Below, piece by piece: positions 11,521-53,143 of a DNA stretch of 64,000 nt; the first letter of the stretch is position 1, and the number at the start of each line of letters is the position of its first letter. The DNA lies in NCBI RefSeq assembly GCF_037101375.1, contig NZ_AP029019.1:3143001-3207000 (forward strand), given 5' to 3'. A model generated the notes under the pieces. It was not told the origin of the DNA. It searched no databases and was given only the letters and a program-made list of their open reading frames with translations. This DNA comes from Acidovorax sp. DW039. GTDB lineage: Bacteria; Pseudomonadota; Gammaproteobacteria; Burkholderiales; Burkholderiaceae_C. Position numbers and translations under genes: made by a program.

Positions 11521-11597
11521 TGGCGGAGTGGACGGGACTCGAACCCGCGACCCCCGGCGTGACAGGCCGGTATTCTAACCAACTGAACTACCACTCC
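11521..11597 (-). tRNA. tRNA-Asp (GTC), copy 1
   Basis: 77 bases including encoded CCA. Seven-pair acceptor stem GGAGTGG/CCACTCC, anticodon loop in CCTGTCACG giving anticodon GTC, and T-arm GGGTTCGAGTCCC. It is the last gene of the cluster, 4 bases before the terminator. Confidence 0.97.
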
Positions 11598-11647
11598 TGG
11601 TAGATAGCTTTCGCTTGCATCTGTGACACAAGCCAAGCGCTACAACT

Positions 11648-11723
11648 TGGCGACCCTACGGGGATTCGAACCCCGGTACTCACCGTGAAAGGGTGATGTC
11701 CTAGGCCTCTAGACGATAGGGTC
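11648..11723 (-). tRNA. tRNA-Glu (TTC), copy 1
   Basis: 76 bases with encoded CCA. It starts GACCCTATCGTCTAGAGGCC and the anticodon loop CCTTTCACG gives TTC. Typical bacterial tRNA-Glu. Confidence 0.97.
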
Positions 11724-11751
11724 AAAACCTAAGAACTTCCGTTCTGCTTAT

Positions 11752-11827
<76 letters not shown>

Positions 11828-11874
11828 ACAGCGTTTCATTCCTGAAACGAGCCTAAAAAATTAGGCCCTGGATT

Positions 11875-11951
11875 TGGCGGAGTGGACGGGACTCGAACCC
11901 GCGACCCCCGGCGTGACAGGCCGGTATTCTAACCAACTGAACTACCACTCC
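11875..11951 (-). tRNA. tRNA-Asp (GTC), copy 2
   Basis: Identical to the copy at 11521-11597; 77 bases with encoded CCA. Confidence 0.97.
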
Positions 11952-12001
11952 TGGTAGATAGCTTTCACTTGCATCTGTGACACAAGCCAAGCGCTACAAC
12001 T

Positions 12002-12077
12002 TGGCGACCCTACGGGGATTCGAACCCCGGTACTCACCGTGAAAGGGTGATGTCCTAGGCCTCTAGACGATAGGGTC
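12002..12077 (-). tRNA. tRNA-Glu (TTC), copy 2
   Basis: Identical to the copy at 11648-11723; 76 bases with encoded CCA. Confidence 0.97.
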
Positions 12078-12105
12078 AAAACCTAAGAACTTCCGTTCTG
12101 CTTAT

Positions 12106-12181
<76 letters not shown>

Positions 12182-40875: not shown

Positions 40876-40951
40876 GCCGGTGTAGCTCAGTCGGTAGAGC
40901 AGCTCATTCGTAATGAGAAGGTCGGGTGTTCGATTCATCTCTCCGGCACCA
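40876..40951 (+). tRNA. tRNA-Thr (CGT)
   Basis: 76 bases with encoded CCA. It starts GCCGGTGTAGCTCAGTCGG; the anticodon stem CTCAT/ATGAG holds loop TCGTA, giving CGT. The acceptor stem has a T-T mismatch at the sixth pair, and the T-stem uses G-U pairs. Confidence 0.95.
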
Positions 40952-42437: not shown

Positions 42438-42773
42438 TCACGCTGGCACGTCGCCCGCACTGCCCTGGATCTGCTCTTTGAGCTTGCTGCTGGCGTGAAA
42501 GGTCACCACACGCCGCGCCTCAATCGGAATCGCCTCGCCTGTGCGAGGGTTGCGACCGGGCCGGGGTGCCTTGGTCCGGATCTGGAAGTTACCAAATCCG
42601 GACAATTTGACATCTTTCCCGTCGATCAGGCTTTGCACGATCAGGTCAAAAAACGCATCCACCATGTCTTTGGACTCGCGCTTGTTGAGTCCAATGTGGT
42701 CGAACAGAAGATCTGCCAGCTGAGCTTTGGTCAGAGCATTCGTTTCAAGACTGTCTACCGCAAACTCAATCAT
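42438..42773 (-). CDS. ihfA: Integration host factor subunit alpha
   Basis: 111 residues from ATG 42773, preceded by GGAAGGG; an ATG at 42791 has no good site. HU/IHF fold: [20 protein letters not shown] at the N-terminus, [20 protein letters not shown] with the DNA-bending RPGRNP arm, and [13 protein letters not shown]. It bends DNA as a dimer with IhfB. Directly downstream of pheT (24 bases), as in most proteobacteria. Confidence 0.95.
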
Positions 42774-42796
42774 CGGAGTCCCTTCCAACATGGCGT

Positions 42797-45244
42797 TCAG
42801 ACACGCAGACGGCCGCCCGTGCGGGCCACGACCTGAGCCACCACAGCCTGCACTGCCGCGTCAATTTCAGCCTCGGTCAGAGAGGCATCATCGCGCCCCA
42901 GCGTGAGGCGCACGGCCAGGCTCTTCTCGCCTGCAGCCACACCACCAGCCACCGCTTCTTCGCCAGCGCGCGCAACCTTAGGTCGGTAAACGTCGAACAG
43001 CACAGCGGAGCGCAAGGTAGAGGCAGGTACCGCAGATTCGACAGCCGACATGACCTCGCTGTGGGTCACGCGCTCTGCCACCACGATGGCCAGGTCACGC
43101 TCCACCGGTTGGTGCTTGGCAACAGGCTTGAATTTCGGGACAGCGCGCTGCAACACAGCATCGAGTTCCAGCTCAAACATGACGGGGGCCTGCGGCAGCT
43201 CCCACCCTTGCCGCCACTGGGGATGCAGTTCTCCCACATGCCCGATGACGCGGCCATTGACCAGCACACGGGCGCAACGACCTGGGTGCATGGCCGGGTG
43301 CGTGGACGGCTCAAAGGTGGCTCGCATGGGGGCCAGCAACGCCTCCACATCGCCCTTGACGTCATAAAAGTCAACGGGCTGCTCCTTGCGCCCCCACTGC
43401 AGCACATCTGCCGGGCCATAAGCCACGCCAGCGACCCGCATGGGCTGGTGGAACCCTTCCACGGTCGTATCGGTGTTGGTCACCGAAGCATCGCGCAGAA
43501 AAACACGGCCCAGTTCGAACACGCGCACACGCTGTGCCTTGCGGTCCAGATTGAACTTCAGCACCTGCAACAGCGATCCCAACAGGGTGGACCGCATGAC
43601 GCTCATCTGGCTGGCAATCGGGTTGAGCAGCTTGATGGGGTTGGTGTTACCCGCCAGCTGGTGCTCCCAGCGCTCTTCTACAAAGCTGAAGTTGATGGTT
43701 TCCTGGTATCCCAGGCCTGCCAGCGAGCGGCGCACGGCAAACGGGCTGCGCGTGGCCTCGGCAGGCAGCTTGGGAGTGATGGGTGCCAGCGGTGGCGTGG
43801 TGGGCAGGTTGTTGTACCCCACCATACGCGCCACTTCCTCAATCAGGTCTTCCTCGATGGCGATATCGAAGCGATAGCTGGGAGGGGTGACTGTGATGAC
43901 ACCGTCGGCCTCGGACACGGCCAGACCCAGGCGCTGCAGCGCATCCACACACTGGGCGGCCGTCACGGGCATGCCAATGACCTTGGCCGCACGGGACACC
44001 CGCAGCTTGACGGGCTGGGCAGCAGGCACATTCACCACATGGTCGTCCATGGGGCCGCAAGCCGTATCGGGCGTACCGCAGATATCGATGACCAACTGGG
44101 TAATGCGCTCGATATGCTCCACCGTGAGGCTGGGGTCCACGCCACGTTCGAACCGATGGCCCGCATCGGTCGAGAAGTTGTAGCGGCGCGAGCGGCCAGC
44201 CACGGCCTTGGGCCACCAGAAGGCGGCTTCGATGTAAATGTGCTTGGTATTGTCCGACACAGCTGTGGCGTCGCCGCCCATGATGCCGGCAAGCGATTCG
44301 ACCTGACTGTCGTCTGCAATCACGCCCACCTTGTCATCCACGGTGATGGTGTTGCCATTGAGCAGCTTGAGCTGTTCGCCCGGCTTGCCCCAGCGCACAT
44401 CCAGCCCCCCTTGAATCTTTTCCAGATCAAAGATGTGGGAAGGGCGACCCAACTCGAACATCACGTAGTTCGAAATGTCCACCAGCGGCGACACGCCACG
44501 CTGACCGCAACGGGCCAAGCGGTCCAGCATCCACTGGGGCGTGGCAGCACGGGTGTTGACGTTGCGGACGATGCGACCCGTGAAACGGCCACACAGGTCA
44601 GGCGAAGACACCTTGACGGGCAGCTTGTCACCCAAAGTCGCCTGTACCGCAGCGAACTCAGGCTGCTTGAGAGGCGCACCCGTCAATGCAGACAGCTCGC
44701 GGGCTATACCGTACACGCTCAGGCAGTGCGCCAGATTGGGCGTGAGTTTGAGCGTGAATAGCGTGTCGTCCAGGTTCAGGTGGCTGCGAATGTCCTGCCC
44801 CACGGGGGCCGCAGCGTCCAGCTCCAGCAGCCCGCCATGGTCTTCGGACAGCTTGAGTTCGCGCGCTGAGCACAGCATGCCCTGGCTTTCCACGCCACGA
44901 AGCTTGCCCACCTTGATGAGGAACGGCTTGCCATCATCGCCTGGGGGCAACTCCGCCCCCACCAAGGCGCAAGGCACTTTGATACCCACGCGGGCATTGG
45001 GTGCGCCGCACACGATGTTGAGCAAAGCCCCCTGCCCCACATCCACCTGGCAAACCCGCAGACGGTCAGCGTCAGGATGCTGCACTGCCTCCTTGATTTC
45101 ACCCACGACGATCTTGGTGAAAGGCGGTGCGACAGGGCGCAGCTCTTCCACTTCGAGACCCGCCATGGTCAACGTATCAGCCAGCTCTTGGGTGCTTAGC
45201 GGGGGGTTGCAGAACTCGCGCAACCAGGACTCAGGAAATTGCAT
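42797..45244 (-). CDS. pheT: Phenylalanine--tRNA ligase beta subunit
   Basis: 815 residues. Domains in order: B1/tRNA-binding OB domain (about 40-150, [20 protein letters not shown]), B3/B4 editing domain (about 210-400), B5 (about 405-475), catalytic-like B6/B7 (about 480-690) and a C-terminal anticodon-binding FDX-ACB domain (about 715-815, [16 protein letters not shown]). With PheS it forms the alpha2-beta2 enzyme. Separated from pheS by 132 bases that carry a repeat copy. Confidence 0.96.
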
Positions 45245-45267
45245 GGTGAAAATTCTTTTGTGCGTTT

Positions 45268-45330
45268 GCTATGAAAAAGAGAGCTGCCTGCGCTTATTTG
45301 GCGTCTGCTAGCAGTGATTTCTTATCGATT
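45268..45330 (+). repeat. Dispersed palindromic repeat, copy E, between pheS and pheT
   Basis: Core GCTATGAAAAAGAGAGCTGC, then CTGCGCTTATTT; the second half is degraded. It would be present in the pheS-pheT intergenic mRNA. Confidence 0.5.
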
Positions 45331-45376
45331 TTTCGATCACTGCGCCCTTGGCTGGCAGCCCGACTTATCGAGGCTG

Positions 45377-46429
45377 TTACTGGAACTGCGACAGAAAACG
45401 GATGTCGCCATCAAAGAACAGGCGCAAGTCATTCACGCCATAACGCAGCATAGTGAGTCGGTCAGGGCCCATGCCAAACGCAAAGCCGATGTACTTTTCA
45501 GGATCTAGGCCCATATTGCGCACGACATTCGGGTGCACCTGGCCCGAGCCCGCCACTTCCAGCCAGCGGCCCGCCAAAGGCCCGGTCTGGAACTGGATAT
45601 CAATCTCCGCACTCGGTTCGGTAAACGGAAAGAAGCTGGGACGGAACCGAAGCACCAGATCATCGCTTTCGAAGAAGGTGCGGCAGAAGTCGGTGAACAC
45701 GACCTTCAGGTCCTTGAAGCTCACGTTTTCGCCAACCCACAGCCCTTCGCACTGATGGAACATGGGGGAATGCGTGGCATCGCTGTCTACCCGATAGGTG
45801 CGGCCTGGGGCAATCACGCGGATCTCGGGCATGGTCTTGCCTGCATCGAGCAGCGCCTTGTGCTTTTTGACGTGCTGCACAGCGTGCCGGATCTGCATGG
45901 GGCTGGTGTGCGTGCGCAGCAGGTTGGGGGCGGTGGCGGTGCCGCCCTCAACGTAAAACGTATCGTGCATGGAACGCGCGGGATGATCCTCAGGCGTGTT
46001 CAATGCAGTGAAGTTGAACCAGTCGGTTTCGATCTCAGGCCCTTGCGCCACATCGAAGCCCATGGATCCAAAAATGCCCTCAATGCGCTCCAGGGTGAGG
46101 GAGACCGGATGAAGACCGCCTTGCCCGCGCTGACGGCCGGGCAAACTCACATCCAGCGCTTCGGCCTTGAGCTGGGCTTGAAGCTCGGCATCTGCCAAGG
46201 CTTGGCGACGCGCAGTCAGCGCGGCCTCAATCGCCTGTTTGGCGATATTGATCGCTGCGCCGCGAGATTTCTTCTCCTCGACAGACAGCTGCGCCATGCC
46301 CTTCATCAGCTCGGTAATGCGCCCTGACTTGCCCAGAAACTGAGCCTTGGCGTTTTCCAGATCGGCAGGGGTGGCACTTTGCTCAAACAGTTGTTTGGCG
46401 CTTTCGACCAGAGAATCCAACTCGTTCAT
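45377..46429 (-). CDS. pheS: Phenylalanine--tRNA ligase alpha subunit
   Basis: 350 residues. N-terminal coiled-coil arm (about 1-85) and class II catalytic core with [14 protein letters not shown], an [11 protein letters not shown] motif (motif 2 region) and the late [13 protein letters not shown] (motif 3). It charges phenylalanine on tRNA-Phe together with PheT. A hairpin-rich 100-base gap upstream contains a candidate leader ORF. Confidence 0.96.
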
Positions 46430-46440
46430 ATCGACTCTTG

Positions 46441-46523
46441 AAAATAAACAAGGGCTAGTGCCTTTTCAAGCCCTAGCCCTTGCTGTTATTGCGCAAGAAG
46501 CTATCAAAACGATAGCTTCTCAT
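46441..46523 (-). promoter_or_regulatory. Candidate pheST leader/attenuator
   Basis: On the minus strand, 8 bases after the rplT stop, a short ORF (46473-46523) encodes MRSYRFDSFLRNNSKG, with two Phe and one Tyr. Stem GAAGCTATC/GATAGCTTC (46497-46519) is followed by a stem AAGGGCTAG/CTAGCCCTT (46450-46481) and a T-rich TGTTTATTTTC. The order leader-hairpin-terminator matches E. coli pheM control, but the U-tract is weak and the first stem derives from the dispersed repeat family (copy F). Confidence 0.4.
46500..46520 (+). repeat. Dispersed palindromic repeat, partial copy F
   Basis: GCTATCAAAACGATAGCTTC, the first stem only. Confidence 0.45.
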
Positions 46524-46530
46524 CGTGATC

Positions 46531-46890
46531 TCAAGCAGCCAGCTTGGCCTTGACTTGGTTCACGATGCTGCCGAAGGCAGCCTTGTCGTGCACTGCGAGA
46601 TCGGCCAGCATCTTGCGGTCGATTTCGATGGAAGCCTTCTTCAGGCCGTTGGCGAACTGGCTGTATGTCAGACCCAGTTCACGAGCAGCGGCGTTGATAC
46701 GGGCGATCCACAGCTGGCGGAACACGCGCTTCTTGGTGCGGCGGTCACGGTAGGCATATTGCCCAGCCTTCATTACCGCCTGTTTGGCGATACGGAAGAC
46801 ATTACCGCGGCGACCACGGAAACCCTTGGCAAGGGCGAGAACTTTCTTGTGACGGGCACGGGCCGTTACACCACGTTTGACGCGAGGCAT
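46531..46890 (-). CDS. rplT: 50S ribosomal protein L20
   Basis: 119 residues, standard length. Begins [20 protein letters not shown] and is strongly basic ([20 protein letters not shown]). It is needed for early 50S assembly and in other bacteria represses its own operon by binding the leader RNA. It follows rpmI by 26 bases. Confidence 0.98.
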
Positions 46891-46916
46891 GTATGTACTC
46901 CTAGTTCGTCAGTTGA

Positions 46917-47120
46917 TTACAGGCCCGCGCTGGGCAGCATTTGTGCGATAGAGCCCATGTTGGTCTCATGCACATTCACCGCACCACGCAGATGGCGCTT
47001 GTTCTTGGTGGTCTTCTTGGTCAAGATGTGACGCTTGAAGGCCTGACCGCGCTTGACGGTACCACCTGGACGAACGCGGAAACGCTTTTTCGCGCTGCTC
47101 TTGGTCTTCATTTTGGGCAT
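46917..47120 (-). CDS. rpmI: 50S ribosomal protein L35
   Basis: 67 residues from ATG 47120 ([20 protein letters not shown]), with AAAGGAG 7 bases upstream. Typical [20 protein letters not shown] core. The 160-base gap to infC is unusually long and holds three stable hairpins. Confidence 0.97.
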
Positions 47121-47198
47121 TTGAATGCTCCTTTTCGTTGTGCTCGTGAGGCGTTCGCAAACCGATTTGCAAACTTGTTGGCCCCGAGCCACTTTTTT

Positions 47199-47259
47199 CC
47201 CCGGAGGGTGAGTCCGGGGGCGACAGTGTAAACACTGTCTTTGCCGGCAAGCCGGCAAA
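47199..47259 (-). promoter_or_regulatory. Three consecutive hairpins between infC and rpmI
   Basis: CCCCGGA/TCCGGGG (47199-47219), GACAGTGT/ACACTGTC (47222-47239) and TTTGCCGG/CCGGCAAA (47240-47259). On the minus strand the first is followed by AAAAAA rather than T, so it is not a terminator. In other bacteria L20 binds structured RNA in this gap to repress rpmI-rplT; a similar leader is inferred here. Confidence 0.5.
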
Positions 47260-47280
47260 TCTTTCACAAAATACCTGCGA

Positions 47281-47883
47281 TCACGCTGCCGGGCTGCCGC
47301 CTGTAGGAGCGTCTGCCGCTGGCTTGGCCGTACCGGGCTTTTTGCGTCCCGGCGCGATCATCATGATCATCTGACGGCCTTCCAGCTTGGGAAACTGCTC
47401 AACGATGATGGTGTCTGCCAGATCATCGCGAATACGGTTCAGCAAGGCCAGACCGAGTTCCTGATGGGTGATTTCACGACCACGGAAACGCAGCGTGATC
47501 TTGCACTTGTCCCCATCAGCCAAAAACCGGCGGATGTTCCGCAGCTTGATGTTGTAGTCGCCATCGTCCGTACCAGGACGGAACTTGACTTCCTTGATCT
47601 CAATGACCGTCTGCTTGGCTTTGGCCTCAGCAGCACGTTTTTGCTCCTGGTACTTGAACTTTCCGTAGTCCATCAGGCGGCACACCGGCGGGTTTGCTGT
47701 AGCAGCAATCTCCACCAGATCAACGTCCAGTTCACCCGCCATGCGCAAGGCTTCCATCAAGCTCACCACACCGAGCGGCTCATTGTCAGGACCCGAAAGG
47801 CGAATCTCAGGGGCCATGATTTCACGGTTCAGGCGGTGTTTGCGCTCTTCACGTTGGCGACGATCACGAAATTCAGTAGCGAT
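47281..47883 (-). CDS. infC: Translation initiation factor IF-3, AUC start codon
   Basis: 200 residues if translation begins at ATC 47883. AAGGAAG lies 6 bases before it, and the encoded [20 protein letters not shown] matches the conserved IF-3 N-terminus. The first in-frame ATG (47817) would delete 22 conserved residues. IF-3 rejects non-AUG starts, so a rare start on its own mRNA gives feedback control (known for E. coli AUU). N-terminal domain [20 protein letters not shown] and C-terminal [20 protein letters not shown] are standard. Ends in a Pro/Ala-rich tail. Confidence 0.92.
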
Positions 47884-47969
47884 GGCTATCTTCCTTGAAT
47901 CAAAATGCTACGGAAACTGTAGCTACACCCGCGCAACTGGCGTGCCCCAGAGCTCGATTTGGTAGTAAA

Positions 47970-49889
47970 TCAGGCTTTGTCAGCAATGTCTTTGGCGATG
48001 AGTTCAATGAACGCATCTACAGACATCACACCGAGGTCTTGATTGCCTCGGGCTCGCACTGCGACGGCTCCTGCTGCTTTTTCCTTGTCGCCAGCGACGA
48101 GGATGTAGGGCAGCTTTTGCAACGAATGCTCCCGTATTTTATACGTAATCTTTTCGTTACGCAGATCCAGTGCCACCCTAAGGCCTTGATTGGGCAGCGC
48201 TTTTTGCAGTTTTGCGGCAATTTCACGACAGTAATCCGCCTGGGAATCGGTAATGTTGAGCACCGAAACCTGCACAGGGGCAAGCCAGGTAGGCAACGCA
48301 CCCGAGTGCTGCTCGATCAGAATACCGATGAAACGCTCCAGACTGCCCACGATCGCGCGGTGCAGCATGATGGGGCGATGACGGGCTCCATCTTCACCTA
48401 CAAACTCTGCGTCCAGGCGCTCAGGCAGGTTCGGGTCAACCTGGATCGTGCCGCACTGCCACTGACGGCCCAGCGCGTCCTTGAGTGTGTATTCAATCTT
48501 CGGACCATAGAAGGCGCCCTCGCCCGGCAGGTATTCGAAGTCACATCCCGAAGCACGCAAGCCTTCGGCCAGCGCATTCTCCGCACGATCCCAGCTTTCT
48601 TCTGTGCCGATCCGTTTTTCAGGACGGGTAGACAGCTTGTAGATGATGTCGGTGAAACCAAAGTCCTTGTAGACCTTTTGCAGCAATTGGGTGAAGGCCA
48701 CCACCTCGGACTGGATCTGATCTTCGGTACAGAAAATGTGGCCATCGTCCTGCGTAAAAGCACGCACGCGCATGATGCCGTGCAGGCCGCCTGTGGGCTC
48801 GTTGCGATGGCACTGACCGAATTCACCGAACCGCAGGGGCAAATCGCGATAGCTCTTGATACCCTGCTTGAAGATGATGATGTGCCCAGGGCAATTCATC
48901 GGCTTGAGCGCGTAGTCGCGCTTTTCCGACTCGGTGACAAACATGTTCTCGCGGTATTTGTCCCAGTGTCCAGTCTTCTCCCACAGACTCTGGTCGAGGA
49001 TCTGGGGGCCTTTGACCTCCAGGTAACCATTCTCACGGTACACGCGGCGCATGTATTGCTCGACCTCTTGCCACACCGTCCAGCCCTTGGGGTGCCAAAA
49101 CACAGTGCCGGGCGAATGCTCATCAATGTGGAAGAGATCCAGTTCGCGTCCCAGTTTGCGGTGATCGCGCTTCTCTGCCTCTTCCAACAAAGTCAGATAT
49201 TGCTGCAATTCATCTTTGGTGGCCCATGCAGTTCCATAGACACGCTGCAGCATCTCATTGCGATGGTCGCCACGCCAATAAGCGCCTGCCACCTTCATCA
49301 GCTTGAAAAATTTCAGCTTGCCAGTGCTGGGCACATGAGGGCCACGGCACAGATCCTCAAACTCACCCTCGCGGTAGAGGCTCACATCCTCATTGCTGGG
49401 GATGCTGGCAATGATCTCCGCCTTGTAATGCTCACCCAAGCTCTTGAAATATGCGACAGCCTCATCGCGAGGCAGCACGCGGCGCACCACGGGCTCGTCT
49501 TTCGCGGCCAACTCGGTCATGCGCTTTTCGATGGCAGCCAGGTCTTCGGGCGTGAAAGGACGCTTGTAGGCAAAGTCGTAATAGAAGCCGTTTTCAATGA
49601 CCGGGCCGATCGTGACCTGGGCTTCAGGAAACAGCTGCTTGACCGCATACGCCAGCAAGTGAGCTGTGGAGTGCCGGATGACCTCCAGTCCATCGGCATC
49701 CTTGGCAGTGACGATGGACAAGGGCGAATCCGATGTGATCTGGTAGCTGGTGTCCACCACCTTATCACCAATCTTGCCAGCCAAAGCAGCCTTGGCCAGG
49801 CCAGCACCAATCGAAGCGGCCACTTCGGCCACCGTGACCGGGCCTGGGAATTCGCGCTGGGAACCGTCGGGGAGCGTAATGTGAATCAT
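47970..49889 (-). CDS. thrS: Threonine--tRNA ligase
   Basis: 639 residues from ATG 49889 ([20 protein letters not shown]); a longer reading to 49922 is unlikely. Domains: N-terminal TGS, editing domain ([20 protein letters not shown] and [15 protein letters not shown]), class II catalytic core ([20 protein letters not shown], and the zinc ligands in [11 protein letters not shown] plus downstream His), and an anticodon-binding C-terminus. It charges threonine. First gene of the thrS-infC-rpmI-rplT-pheST-ihfA run. A threonine-rich leader peptide and attenuator precede it. Confidence 0.96.
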
Positions 49890-49932
49890 GGGGAAGTCCA
49901 GGTGGTGGCGCAACACATGCACCGAATAGAAA

Positions 49933-49967
49933 GAAAAAACAAAAAAGCGCGGAACCGGCCGCGCTTT
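49933..49967 (-). terminator. thrS: Attenuator terminator in the thrS leader
   Basis: On the minus strand AAAGCGCGG (49967-49959) pairs with CCGCGCTTT (49952-49944) around CCGGTT and is followed by TTTTTTGTTTTTTC. It lies 44 bases before the thrS ATG, so thrS can only be expressed by read-through, or from a promoter in the small remaining gap, of which I see no sign. Confidence 0.88.
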
Positions 49968-50010
49968 GATGAGGGAGAAAAGGTCTCGTGCAGGCGCGAA
50001 CGGCCAGCCA

Positions 50011-50097
50011 CTAGTGGCCGGTACAGATCTCCGTCGTAGTTCGCGGTGTCATAACCAGAATGCCTTTCTCGCTCTTGTAGATCAAACTTGTGCGCAT
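50011..50097 (-). CDS. thrS leader peptide, threonine-rich
   Basis: 28 codons from ATG 50097 with GGGGG upstream, or 13 codons from ATG 50052 with AAAGG 10 bases before it. The shorter form reads [13 protein letters not shown], five Thr in 13 residues, with three adjacent Thr codons ACT ACG ACG. The stop codon TAG lies in a palindrome (50007-50018). CGCGAAC, covering the codons just before the Thr run, pairs with GTTCGCG (49995-50001). That arm can alternatively pair, as GGCCGTTCGCGC (50005-49994), with GCGCGGCC (49964-49957) in the terminator. A ribosome stalled on Thr codons would open the first stem and block the terminator. Confidence 0.72.
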
Positions 50098-50133
50098 TTT
50101 AACCCCCAAGGTCCCGCGCACCTCGATGGGACG

Positions 50134-50159
50134 CAAAAAAGCCCGGGCACGCCCGGGCT
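50134..50159 (-). terminator. aceA terminator
   Basis: AGCCCGGG pairs with CCCGGGCT around four bases; the minus strand continues into TTTTTTGCG. It separates aceA from the thrS leader. Confidence 0.88.
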
Positions 50160-50181
50160 CCTGAACTCACTTTTGAGTGAA

Positions 50182-51513
50182 TCAGTGGAACTGCTCTTCC
50201 TCGGTAGAACCCGTCAGGGCCTTCACGGAAGACGAACCGCCCTGGATCACGGTGGTCACGTCGTCGAAGTAGCCTGCACCCACTTCCTGCTGGTGCGACA
50301 CGAAGGTGTAGCCCTTGTCGCGTGCTGCGAATTCAGGCTCTTGCACCATTTCAACGTAGTGCTTCATGCCTTCGCCGCGAGCGTATGCATGGGCGAACTG
50401 GAAGGTGTTGTACCAGTTGATATGGATACCGGCCAGCGTAATGAACTGGTACTTGTAGCCCAATGCAGACAGCTCTTCCTGGAACGAAGCAATTTGCTTG
50501 TCGTCGAGGTTCTTCTTCCAGTTGAAAGAGGGCGAGCAGTTGTACGACAGCAGCTTGCCGGGGCAGGCAGCATGCACGGCCTGGGCAAATTCGCGAGCGA
50601 AGCCGATGTCTGGCACGCCGGTTTCGCACCACACCAGATCTGCGTAGGGAGCGTAGGCCACGCCGCGGCTGATGGCCTGCTCCAGACCATTCTTCACGCG
50701 GTAGAAGCCTTCTTGGGTGCGCTCGCCAGTCAGGAAGGGCTTGTCGTTGGCGTCGTGGTCGGAGGTGATCAGGTTGGCAGCTTCGGCATCGGTGCGGGCC
50801 AGCACGATGGTGGGTACGCCCATCACGTCAGCAGCGAAACGGGCAGCGATCAGCTTTTCGCAGGCTTCTTGCGTGGGCACCAGCACCTTGCCACCCATGT
50901 GACCGCACTTCTTCACGGCAGCCAGCTGGTCTTCGAAGTGCACGCCGGCTGCGCCTGCTGCGATCATGTTCTTCATCAGTTCGAAGGCGTTCAGCACACC
51001 GCCGAAGCCCGCTTCCGCATCAGCCACGATGGGCAGGAAGTAGTCGATGAATTCCTTGTCGCCGGGGTTGATGCCACGGCCCCACTGGATCTCGTCAGCA
51101 CGCTTGAAGGTGTTGTTGATGCGACGAACCATGGTGGGCACCGAGTCGTAGGCGTAGAGCGACTGGTCGGGGTACATGGTTTCGGAAGTGTTGCCGTCCG
51201 CAGCAACTTGCCAGCCCGACAGGTACACCGCTTCGAGGCCCGCCTTGGCTTGCTGCATGGCCTGGCCCGCAGAGATGGCGCCGAAAGCATTGACGTAGCC
51301 CTTCTTGGCACCACCGTTGATCTTGTCCCACAGCTTTTCAGCGCCACGCTTGGCCAGGGTGTGCTCGATGGGCAGCGAACCACGCAGACGCACCACGTCA
51401 GCGGCGGAGTAACCGCGCTTCACACCCTTCCAGCGGGGGTTTTGCGCCCAGTCTTTTTCCAGGGCTGCAATTTGCTGTTCGCGGCTCAGTTGTTCGTTGA
51501 GGGATTGAGGCAT
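50182..51513 (-). CDS. aceA: Isocitrate lyase
   Basis: 443 residues from ATG 51513 ([20 protein letters not shown]). The catalytic signature is [14 protein letters not shown], with [20 protein letters not shown] and the late [14 protein letters not shown] and [13 protein letters not shown] typical of the family. It splits isocitrate to glyoxylate and succinate, opening the glyoxylate shunt for growth on acetate or fatty acids. It is monocistronic with its own terminator. The AT-rich upstream region has three palindromes, so it is probably under strong carbon-source control. Confidence 0.96.
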
Positions 51514-51580
51514 GTGGACACTCCTGAGGTTGGTTGAAAACACCGGGCTGCTTTGCGGCTGCCCATGGAGACAACTTTAA

Positions 51581-51594
51581 GTCTTATATAAGAC
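51581..51594. promoter_or_regulatory. Perfect palindrome GTCTTATATAAGAC upstream of aceA
   Basis: A 14-base exact palindrome 68 bases before the aceA start. A related imperfect copy, GTCTTATAGAAGAT, lies 30 bases away at 51611-51624. The form resembles operators of GntR-type metabolic regulators, but I cannot name the protein. Confidence 0.55.
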
Positions 51595-51666
51595 CAACAC
51601 AAGCTCTTATGTCTTATAGAAGATATAAATTTTCTTATTTAAAAACAATAACTTAGCCTCCACATA

Positions 51667-51699
51667 TCTCAATATGAAATTATTTTTCTCATATTGAGA
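51667..51699. promoter_or_regulatory. Inverted repeat upstream of aceA
   Basis: TCTCAATATGA (51667-51677) and TCATATTGAGA (51689-51699) are exact inverted arms 11 bases apart. It is a second candidate operator, or an upstream activating site. Confidence 0.45.
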
Positions 51700-51729
51700 A
51701 AATCCATCTACCCTGTTAACGATAAACTT

Positions 51730-51758
51730 ATCGCAATGCAAAATGCAGTTTTTGCGAT
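51730..51758. promoter_or_regulatory. ATCGCAA/TTGCGAT inverted repeat upstream of aceA
   Basis: Seven-base exact arms at 51730-51736 and 51752-51758 flank a TGCAAAATGCA core. It lies near the end of the gene downstream of rraA-side neighbours, about 220 bases from the aceA start; it could also be the 3' hairpin of the AIG2-like gene. Confidence 0.3.
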
Positions 51759-51769
51759 ATGAAATACCG

Positions 51770-52177
51770 TCAGGATTTCATCCAATCTCCATGCACAATG
51801 CGTGCCGCCTTTGCAACGTAGCGCCTGTTGATTTCATACACAAGACAGAGCATTTGCCTGCCCTCGCATTGCACTGAAACGAAACGTTTGGCGTATTCAT
51901 CCGATGGCTGAGGGCCAAGCAGGCCTTCAATGGCATCCAGACGGCGCTCCAGAGCGGGTTCGATGGCATACACCTCCCCCGTCACCCACGCGCCCTCATC
52001 GTTCAGCACTAGCCCGGGATAACCGCCCAGATGGAACAGATCGCCCCGAACGGATGCACGACCGATCCATCGCGGTGCTGGCTCCAGTTTGGTGATGTCG
52101 TTGGCACCGCCTTGGCGCAATGTGCCGTAGACAAAAACGTAACGCTCTTCAGTCTTGAGGGCTGACGTGTCAGGCAT
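51770..52177 (-). CDS. Gamma-glutamylcyclotransferase-like (AIG2) protein
   Basis: 135 residues. N-terminal VFVYGTLRQGGAN is the YGSL-type substrate loop of the gamma-glutamylcyclotransferase fold. VTGEVYAIEPALERRLDAIEG carries the expected catalytic-region acid (Glu/Asp before IEG). The family makes 5-oxoproline from gamma-glutamyl compounds, but bacterial members are mostly uncharacterised. Diverges from the EamA transporter gene with 30 bases between starts. Confidence 0.82.
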   Translation of the reverse strand: MPDTSALKTEERYVFVYGTLRQGGANDITKLEPAPRWIGRASVRGDLFHLGGYPGLVLNDEGAWVTGEVYAIEPALERRLDAIEGLLGPQPSDEYAKRFVSVQCEGRQMLCLVYEINRRYVAKAARIVHGDWMKS

Positions 52178-52207
52178 GATGCGGGCTCCTGTTGAGATGG
52201 TGATGTG

Positions 52208-53143
52208 ATGAGCCTAGTTTCCCACCCAAGCCGCCCTGTGGCCTACGGGTGCCTTGCATTGAGCATGGCACTGGTGGGCAGCTACGTTGCTTTGTCCAAG
52301 CCCTTGGCCTTGGCAATCCCCGTGTTTTTGCTGGCCTGGCTGCGCTTTGGCATCGGCGGCTTGGCGATGTTGGGATGGCTGCGCAAACCTGCGCAAGAGC
52401 CACCGCTGAGCCCCCAGACCCGACGCCTGCTGTTTCTGGAGTCTTTTCTCGGTAACTTTCTTTTCACGCTGTGCATGTTGTATGGCGTCAGCATGACCAG
52501 CGCTTTGACCGCTGGGGTGACCATGGCGGCGATTCCCGCTGCGGTTGCTGTCATGAGCTGGATGTTTTTGCGCGAGCGCATCTCGCGCCGCACTTGGGCC
52601 GCGGTGGCGTTGGCAGTTCTTGGAATTGCACTGCTTTCGCTATCAAAAACAGAGCACTCTGCGCACGGCGCGCCTGCCGCAGCAACACAATCCCCTGGTC
52701 AGTATTTATGGCTTGGGCAGCTGTTGCTGATAGGCGCTGTGCTGTGTGAGGCTGCATATTCCGTGATCGGCAAGAAACTGACTGGCACCTTGGGCCCCAA
52801 ACGGATCACATCGCTCATCAATGTGTGGGGGTTCGTGCTGGCCACCCCCCTAGGCATCTACACCGCGTGGAGCTTTGACTTTGCTGCGGTAGCAACGGGA
52901 ACATGGGTCTTGCTGGTCTTCTATGCACTGGCAGCCAGCGTCTGGACCGTGTGGCTGTGGATGACGGGCCTGAAGTCTGTCCCCGCAGCGCAGGGCGGCA
53001 TTTTCACCGTGATGCTGCCCGTGAGCGCAGCACTCGTAGGCGTGTTGGTATTGGGCGAGCAGCTCACGGCCTTGCAGATAACCGCGCTGGGTATTGCCCT
53101 GGCCAGCGTGCTGTTGGCTACCGTGCCTACTCGCGCGCGATAA
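52208..53143 (+). CDS. EamA/DMT-family transporter
   Basis: 311 residues from ATG 52208 (GTG at 52205 is an alternative). Ten hydrophobic helices in two EamA repeats, the pattern of drug/metabolite transporters. The loop between the halves (KTEHSAHGAPAAATQSPGQY) is partly encoded by a short in-frame sequence like the dispersed repeat. Likely an exporter of amino acids or small metabolites; substrate cannot be inferred. Confidence 0.87.
   Translation: MSLVSHPSRPVAYGCLALSMALVGSYVALSKPLALAIPVFLLAWLRFGIGGLAMLGWLRKPAQEPPLSPQTRRLLFLESFLGNFLFTLCMLYGVSMTSALTAGVTMAAIPAAVAVMSWMFLRERISRRTWAAVALAVLGIALLSLSKTEHSAHGAPAAATQSPGQYLWLGQLLLIGAVLCEAAYSVIGKKLTGTLGPKRITSLINVWGFVLATPLGIYTAWSFDFAAVATGTWVLLVFYALAASVWTVWLWMTGLKSVPAAQGGIFTVMLPVSAALVGVLVLGEQLTALQITALGIALASVLLATVPTRAR
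52634..52665 (+). repeat. Repeat-like core inside the EamA gene, copy G
   Basis: GCTATCAAAAACAGAGCACT, then CTGCGCACGG; about 22 of 28 positions match copy A. It lies in frame in the loop between the two EamA domains. Weaker than the pepN and rlmD cases. Confidence 0.35.

Follow-up and report, generated by a model that had tools for sequence, protein, structure and literature searches.

The window analysed here, a stretch of 64,000 nucleotides from Acidovorax sp. DW039, carries on its minus strand the gene for threonine--tRNA ligase, thrS (47970..49889), which starts with an ATG at 49889 and matches TIGR00418 with a score of 725 bits, the only full-length match to this family in its own genome. 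Between thrS and an isocitrate lyase gene (NF011645) that ends at 50182 lies, on the same strand, a leader region that appears to contain all the parts of a transcription attenuator specific for threonine. On the 3' side of thrS, infC, rpmI, rplT, pheS and pheT (42797..47883, minus strand) come next in this order and in the same direction. Co-transcription of the entire thrS-infC-rpmI-rplT-pheST cluster is plausible from this arrangement; terminator-like sites in 42500-50200 number 7, compared with 7.6 in shuffled sequences.

The leader ORF consists of 13 codons on the minus strand (50011..50052), with its ATG at 50052-50050 and its end at 50013-50011. Five of the 13 residues are threonines, encoded by ACA at codon 2, ACC at codon 11 and, at codons 5-7, the adjacent ACT ACG ACG to which the earlier note had drawn attention and which are indeed found there. 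Upstream of the ORF, GAGAAAGG (50063..50070, minus strand) is a putative ribosome-binding site, in which the AAAGG columns are 69-97% conserved in 115 relatives. Thus, as expected of a leader-peptide attenuator, a short ORF that is rich in cognate codons and preceded by a Shine-Dalgarno-like site is present, comparable leaders are found in relatives, and the ORF is presumably translated. A longer in-frame ORF, starting with the ATG at 50097, was dropped because it overlaps a −10-like box, TAAAAT (50096..50101, minus strand). With transcription expected to start near 50089, the ATG at 50097 is probably not transcribed, so that the 13-codon ORF alone is likely to be translated.

The candidate promoter rests on this box because a stricter, two-hexamer sigma-70 scan of 49700-50500 found no promoter. 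Of the 115 relatives, 91 have a TANAAT or TATANT box 5' of the leader, usually at a distance of 45-60 nt from the ATG, compared with 74 of 1150 shuffled regions; no such box was detected in any of the 115 between the hairpin and thrS, a gap with a median of 28 nt. The earlier note had conceded that its model would fall if thrS transcription started downstream of the hairpin; the position of the candidate boxes speaks against such a start.

A predicted intrinsic terminator separates the leader ORF from thrS, and the same type of hairpin is found in relatives. The terminator hairpin, AAAGCGCGG-CCGGTT-CCGCGCTTT (49967-49944), has 9 pairs and is immediately followed by a T tract. The thrS ATG at 49889 is 54 nt from the hairpin and 44 nt from where the T tract ends, in line with the distance of 44 bases given previously. 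Four segments, all on the minus strand, can be delineated. Segment 1, CGCGAAC (50039..50045), spans codons 3-5 of the leader and forms the protector arm; its complement, GTTCGCG, is located at 50001-49995, within segment 2, GGCCGTTCGCGC (49994..50005), which, according to the pairing and folding tests described below, alternates between segments 1 and 3. Segment 3 (49953..49967) comprises the terminator 5' arm AAAGCGCGG, with GCGCGGCC at 49964-49957, and the loop CCGGTT, which also pairs with segment 2. Segment 4, the terminator 3' arm CCGCGCTTT (49944..49952), was delimited by the terminator scan and leads into the T tract. An apical hairpin, CCGGCCACTAGTGGCTGG (50004..50021), is located within the protector loop. 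The leader elements and the terminator are confirmed as first described, and the three mutually exclusive arms all lie exactly where they had been placed. Another hairpin with a T run, AGCCCGGGCGTGCCCGGGCTTTTTT, is located 3' of the isocitrate lyase gene and is absent from the list of the terminator scan.

We explored the spread of this arrangement in 277 Burkholderiales thrS upstream regions, each extending up to 600 nt before the gene and coming from 80 named loci, 109 of 119 other genomes of the family, 87 of 149 other genomes of the order, and the window; the set overlaps slightly, one genome (G018) being represented by both L180 and L194, and some named species seem to recur. A leader was called when an ORF of 6-27 codons contained either Arg-Thr with 2 Thr in 4 codons or 3 Thr in 4, and was followed by a terminator. 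This rule was passed by 144 of the 277 upstreams (41 of 80 named, 78 of 109 family and 24 of 87 order loci, plus the window) compared with 0 of 831 dinucleotide shuffles. Because shuffled sequences rarely form a terminator, a comparison between residues provides a fairer control: among ATG-started ORFs with 3 identical residues in 4 codons before a terminator, the repeated residue was Thr in 88, Val in 17 and Ala in 13 of the 277 upstreams. The 133 upstreams that fail the rule include 63 of the 87 order-level loci. Of these 133, some have a leader poorer in Thr codons, others retain the hairpin alone, and still others have neither. The leaders identified in relatives include MTPRTTTKVSK in Massilia, MIFRTTTEAGN in Azoarcus, MTPRTTTAGKRQ in Cupriavidus, MIQAPRTTTASERQ in Ralstonia and MFKRTTTTRISR in Vogesella.

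The 18-mer GGTTATGACACCGCGRAC, which covers the leader start, is present in exactly one copy in each of 95 of the 120 family genomes, compared with none of the 120 for the reversed control, and 93 of the 95 copies directly precede thrS, with the other two on split contigs. Of 110 extracted family upstreams, 88 have the start codon within the 18-mer at 113-204 nt before thrS, and five more copies are adjacent to thrS by coordinates. The degenerate MTPRTT pattern has a single match in the window's own genome, at the thrS leader. The expectation that both the Thr codons and the alternative pairings would be conserved in close relatives is therefore borne out in many of them and fails in others. 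Directly 5' of the thrS leader, a tRNA gene was observed in five of the eight relatives checked (L031, L052, L062, L075 and L226), where the leader may be cotranscribed with the tRNA.

The leader appears to evolve under two distinct kinds of constraint. The 115 MTPR-type leaders were chosen by ATGACACCGCG, which makes the fixed codons 2-4 in this set uninformative. Codon 6 encodes Thr in 91 of the 115, through ACG in 43, ACC in 23, ACA in 19 and ACT in 6, and codon 7 encodes Thr in 64. Because Thr at codon 6 is retained through all four ACN codons, codons 6-7 appear to be held at the amino acid level. A protein-level search found Met-Thr-Pro-Arg-Thr in 132 of the 277 upstreams, and the silent sites of these 132 leaders are nearly fixed, with ACA at codon 2 in 131, CCG at codon 3 in all 132, CGA at codon 4 in 127 and ACT at codon 5 in 116. 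Moreover, GGTT, the four bases before the leader ATG, which played no part in the selection, is present in 98-100% of the 115. The near-fixation of silent sites, combined with that of GGTT, suggests that constraint on the first codons acts on the nucleotide sequence itself, codons 2-5 doubling as the protector arm. The 18-mer and the codon counts together define a near-invariant block, GGTTATGACACCGCGAACT (50038..50056, minus strand), that encompasses the start of the leader ORF and the protector arm. Such a pattern should be expected if the leader is a translated sensor and the first half of it also serves as an RNA arm; the constraint at the nucleotide level may also hint at a further function.

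The pairings themselves were compared with controls in the same 115 sequences. Codons 2-8 paired better with the native than with the shuffled middle region in 98, and the middle region paired better with the terminator arm and loop than did its shuffled counterpart in 107; the control pairing, between segment 1 and the terminator arm and loop, also exceeded the shuffled value in 104. Native partners were superior to the mean of the partners from other species in 70 sequences for segment 1 with the middle region and in 64 for the middle region with the arm and loop. Partner permutations, carried out on 140 distinct leader/hairpin combinations from the 144 leaders, gave a native mean of −11.75 vs a permuted mean of −11.08 kcal/mol for the middle region with the arm end and loop, a native value reached by none of 20000 permutations; the corresponding numbers were 2 of 20000 for segment 1 with the middle region and 166 of 20000 for the control pairing of segment 1 with the loop. 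Because the control pairing also rises above the shuffled and permuted values, part of the pairing signal is attributable to shared ancestry or to shared GC-rich words. A switch based on segments 1 and 3 was rejected given its mean energy of −10.2 kcal/mol, compared with −15.4 for segment 1 with the middle region and −16.2 for the middle region with the arm and loop.

Compensatory changes in the stems, which the earlier note had proposed to look for, are confined to one loop pair and the apical hairpin, so that the mutually exclusive protector and antiterminator pairings come with limited covariation. Among 98 anchored sequences of the 115, G-C (38) and U-A (23) interchange at the first loop pair, which is paired in 70% of the sequences vs 46% after permutation, a value that none of 10000 permutations reached. 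The second loop pair did not covary in these sequences (53% vs 53%), and the third showed little signal (32% vs 26%, reached by 628 of 10000 permutations). When the covarying pair was mapped on a tree of ThrRS from 46 taxa, 6 changes were counted on the segment 2 side and 16 on the loop side; the changes are thus few, and those on one side do not correspond singly to those on the other. In the window, this pair is a U-C mismatch, and GGCC pairs with GGCC across a bulge instead. In 16 aligned close sequences of the Acidovorax-type clade, the three arms, including CGCGAAC of segment 1, are invariant, so that no covariation could be obtained for them, and in the apical hairpin 2 of the 6 pairs have changed on both sides.

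The logic of the switch was examined by folding the RNA as far as the terminator loop under a 28-nt ribosome mask and recording the probability of the 2:3 pairing, that is, of the antiterminator. For the window, this probability was 0.02 without a ribosome, 0.96 with a ribosome stalled at Thr and 0.002 with a ribosome at the stop codon. Averaged over the 144 leader-bearing sequences, it was 0.29 without a ribosome, 0.61, 0.58 and 0.57 when the ribosome was placed on the first Thr codon of the cluster and on each of the next two codons, and 0.23 at the stop codon. Relative to the RNA without a ribosome, stalling at the first cluster Thr raised the probability by more than 0.02 in 110 of the 144 sequences and lowered it by more than 0.02 in 9; 34 gained no more than 0.02, and the gain is small or absent in several relatives (e.g. 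L007, L028, L052 and L062). Shuffling the middle region reduced the gain from 0.32 to 0.13, and the native gain exceeded the shuffled one in 99 of the 144. The proposal that a stalled ribosome breaks the first stem and allows the antiterminator to form is accordingly reproduced in silico, both in the window and on average: in the folding model, a stall favours the antiterminator, and arrival at the stop codon favours the terminator.

When the ribosome was moved along the window leader codon by codon, stalls at codons 2-11 gave probabilities of 0.75-0.98, followed by 0.17, 0.03 and 0.002 at codons 12 and 13 and at the stop codon, so that all five Thr codons lie inside the permissive zone. In 101 MTPR-type sequences, the mean fell gradually, from 0.80 at codon 2 to 0.25 at the stop codon, with 0.34 in the absence of a ribosome; the sharp switch predicted for the window is not general among its relatives. 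Once the whole leader has been transcribed, the lowest-energy structure is that with the terminator, even when a stalled ribosome is modelled. The switch must therefore be kinetic, with the decision falling during transcription.

Taken together, the sequence elements, their conservation, the constraints on codons and pairings, and the folding logic in silico make it very probable, in our judgement, that the region upstream of thrS acts as a ribosome-mediated transcription attenuator, gauging the level of charged tRNA-Thr and adjusting thrS expression accordingly. The course of events that we infer, from the transcription start through translation of the ORF and termination to the response to threonine, is as follows. 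RNA polymerase would start approximately 37 nt before the leader ATG. When Thr-tRNA is plentiful, the ribosome would reach the stop codon and cover or release segment 2, segment 1, which lies within the Pro-Arg-Thr codons, would pair with segment 2, and the 3:4 terminator would form, ending the transcript after about 150 nt. When Thr-tRNA is short, the ribosome would stall on a Thr codon and cover segment 1, and the free segment 2 would pair with the 5' arm and the loop of the terminator ahead of synthesis of the 3' arm; with the antiterminator formed, transcription would continue into thrS.

The findings on constraint and folding bear also on a variant of this scheme, one that we regard as unlikely, in which the attenuator is real and its trigger is not Thr charging specifically, being instead any slow or absent translation of the leader or the binding of a protein, such as ThrRS, or of a ligand to GGTTATGACACCGCGAACT. 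The near-fixation of this block, at silent sites as well as in the 4 nt that precede the ATG, goes beyond the needs of the peptide, a stall at any of codons 2-11 suffices in the window, and 8 of the 115 MTPR-type leaders keep MTPRT without any Thr beyond codons 2 and 5, all of which would suit a trigger of that kind. The same is true of the 27 of 141 family-type upstreams that lack both the 18-mer and a called leader, of which 18 keep a hairpin of the AAGCGCGG..CCGCGCTT type. However, Thr at codons 6-7 is preserved through synonymous change, Thr is by far the commonest repeated residue, no hairpin mimicking the anticodon was detected in the window, and there is no match to an Rfam family. It is still less credible, and we consider it very improbable, that an ordinary terminator lowers thrS transcription by a constant fraction, the small ORF being incidental: lineages with a promoter-like box and a hairpin and without a leader do exist, but the enrichment in Thr, the partner specificity of the pairings and the dependence on ribosome position would all remain unexplained. 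Finally, that the leader acts mainly through thrS translation, Rho-dependent termination or mRNA stability, with the hairpin serving as a stability element, we practically discount, although in the 115 relatives the hairpin ends close to the thrS ribosome-binding site, at a median distance of 28 nt from thrS, given the terminator-type T tract and the complementarity of segment 2 to the terminator-breaking arm.

Within the preferred reading, attenuation by charged tRNA-Thr, a two-part conjecture can be entertained, which we put forward as doubtful. The near-invariance of the 19-nt GGTTATGACACCGCGAACT might reflect a second recognition event, namely, binding of ThrRS, ribosome arrest on Met-Thr-Pro-Arg-Thr, or an action in trans of the leader RNA of about 150 nt or of the peptide, and, jointly, the leaderless lineages might switch through pairing of a 5'-terminal GCGTTT with AAGCGC of the terminator arm. 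Six leaderless upstreams (L015, L024, L095, L121, L137 and L140) have the hairpin only 22-37 nt after the start of a −10-like box. By eye, GCGTTT near the expected RNA start is common to L015, L137 and a further leaderless relative, L003, and could pair with the terminator-arm AAGCGC.

In E. coli, the hairpins of the thrS operator mimic the anticodon arm. ThrRS of E. coli binds hairpins in its own mRNA and blocks ribosome binding, as described in PMC3858243. That operator resembles the leader in controlling the same gene from the same place, but it acts through ThrRS-bound hairpins that obstruct the ribosome, and such a hairpin was not detected in the window. We searched for this type of operator with a detector that required a stem and a 7-9-nt loop with U and CGU, GGU or UGU close to the thrS start. 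The detector identified an E. coli-type hairpin near thrS in 20 of 40 sampled other-order genomes (e.g. L286, L291, L303 and L311), the 40 being drawn from 93 genomes of the class with a match, compared with 3 of 200 shuffles. It matched 6 of the 277 Burkholderiales upstreams, most of them apparently by chance and two (L027 and L244) bearing leaders; the match in L077 looks real. The window is not among the six, and an E. coli-type operator was rejected for it. The leader rule, when applied to the 40 other-order genomes, was passed once, by a doubtful case (MSTTTAQR). A search of window positions 44000-53000 with the Rfam 15 covariance models gave no match up to E=1, and in the upstreams of 8 relatives the same models detected only tRNAs up to E=0.1; we therefore rejected a T-box, a riboswitch, the enterobacterial Thr leader or another known leader family.

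The attenuators of the enterobacterial thrABC, trp, his, ilv and leu operons combine a short ORF rich in cognate codons with mutually exclusive protector, antiterminator and terminator hairpins, the choice among which depends on ribosome position. The mechanism of leader-peptide attenuation is described in PMC1183508. The thrS leader shares with these attenuators the cognate-rich ORF, the exclusive hairpins and the predicted control by ribosome position; however, they control biosynthesis, whereas here the target is a synthetase gene, the leader is very short, and its first codons form the protector arm. In the pheM-pheST case of E. coli, a synthetase gene is under the control of a leader peptide with cognate codons. 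Both the amino acid and the gene are different there, and the thrS leader precedes the whole thrS-infC-rpmI-rplT-pheST cluster. For bacilli, PMC2965389 predicted that hisS paralogues carry a His leader peptide, which takes the place of another regulator. The parallel, drawn from the description and not from sequence, lies in a leader peptide on a synthetase gene in place of another regulator, likewise as a prediction; the amino acid differs, and the organisms are Firmicutes. The T-box riboswitch on thrS of Firmicutes responds to uncharged tRNA-Thr by binding the tRNA directly, with no leader peptide involved. The response to tRNA-Thr would be common to the two, but a leader peptide is present here, and no Rfam match was obtained.

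The mechanism proposed for thrS is thus classical leader-peptide attenuation, with pheST and the bacilli hisS as precedents among synthetase genes. None of the matches listed in the open-licence literature, judged by titles and the starts of abstracts, concerned a Thr leader on thrS. A comparative study by Lopatovskaya et al. (2010, Mol Biol 44:128) reportedly addressed how amino acid and aminoacyl-tRNA operons are attenuated; it may already have predicted such a leader. A hairpin resembling the tRNA mimic bound by ThrRS occurs in half of the sampled other-order genomes, the Thr leader in about half of the examined Burkholderiales upstreams, and a good part of the Burkholderiales upstreams show neither. 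Judging by these distributions, one feedback device appears to stand in for another, unrelated one on the essential gene thrS within a single class. The two would differ in the signal, free synthetase vs charged tRNA-Thr, and in the level of control, translation vs transcription elongation, and the Thr leader could also reach infC, rplT and pheST if these are co-transcribed. Under this interpretation, thrS would represent a clean case of one regulator replaced by another.

Several additional features of the window deserve mention. The gap between rplT and pheS (46440-46530, minus strand), in which inspection by eye revealed no Phe-rich leader, contains a hairpin, GAAGCTATCGTTTTGATAGCTTC, and a long-looped one, AAGGGCTAG..CTAGCCCTT, followed by GTTTATTTT. 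The infC gene is known to have a non-AUG start in other organisms. Here, its apparent start codon is ATC (window 47881-47883, minus strand), also non-AUG; in the ORF that begins with the ATG at 47817, the match to the family profile does not begin until position 13. Triplets of tRNA-Asp, tRNA-Glu and tRNA-Ala genes form two tandem copies at window positions 11521-12181. ACG, a codon that occurs twice in the leader, is read by tRNA-Thr(CGT), the gene for which is located at window positions 40876-40951 on the plus strand, approximately 9 kb from thrS.
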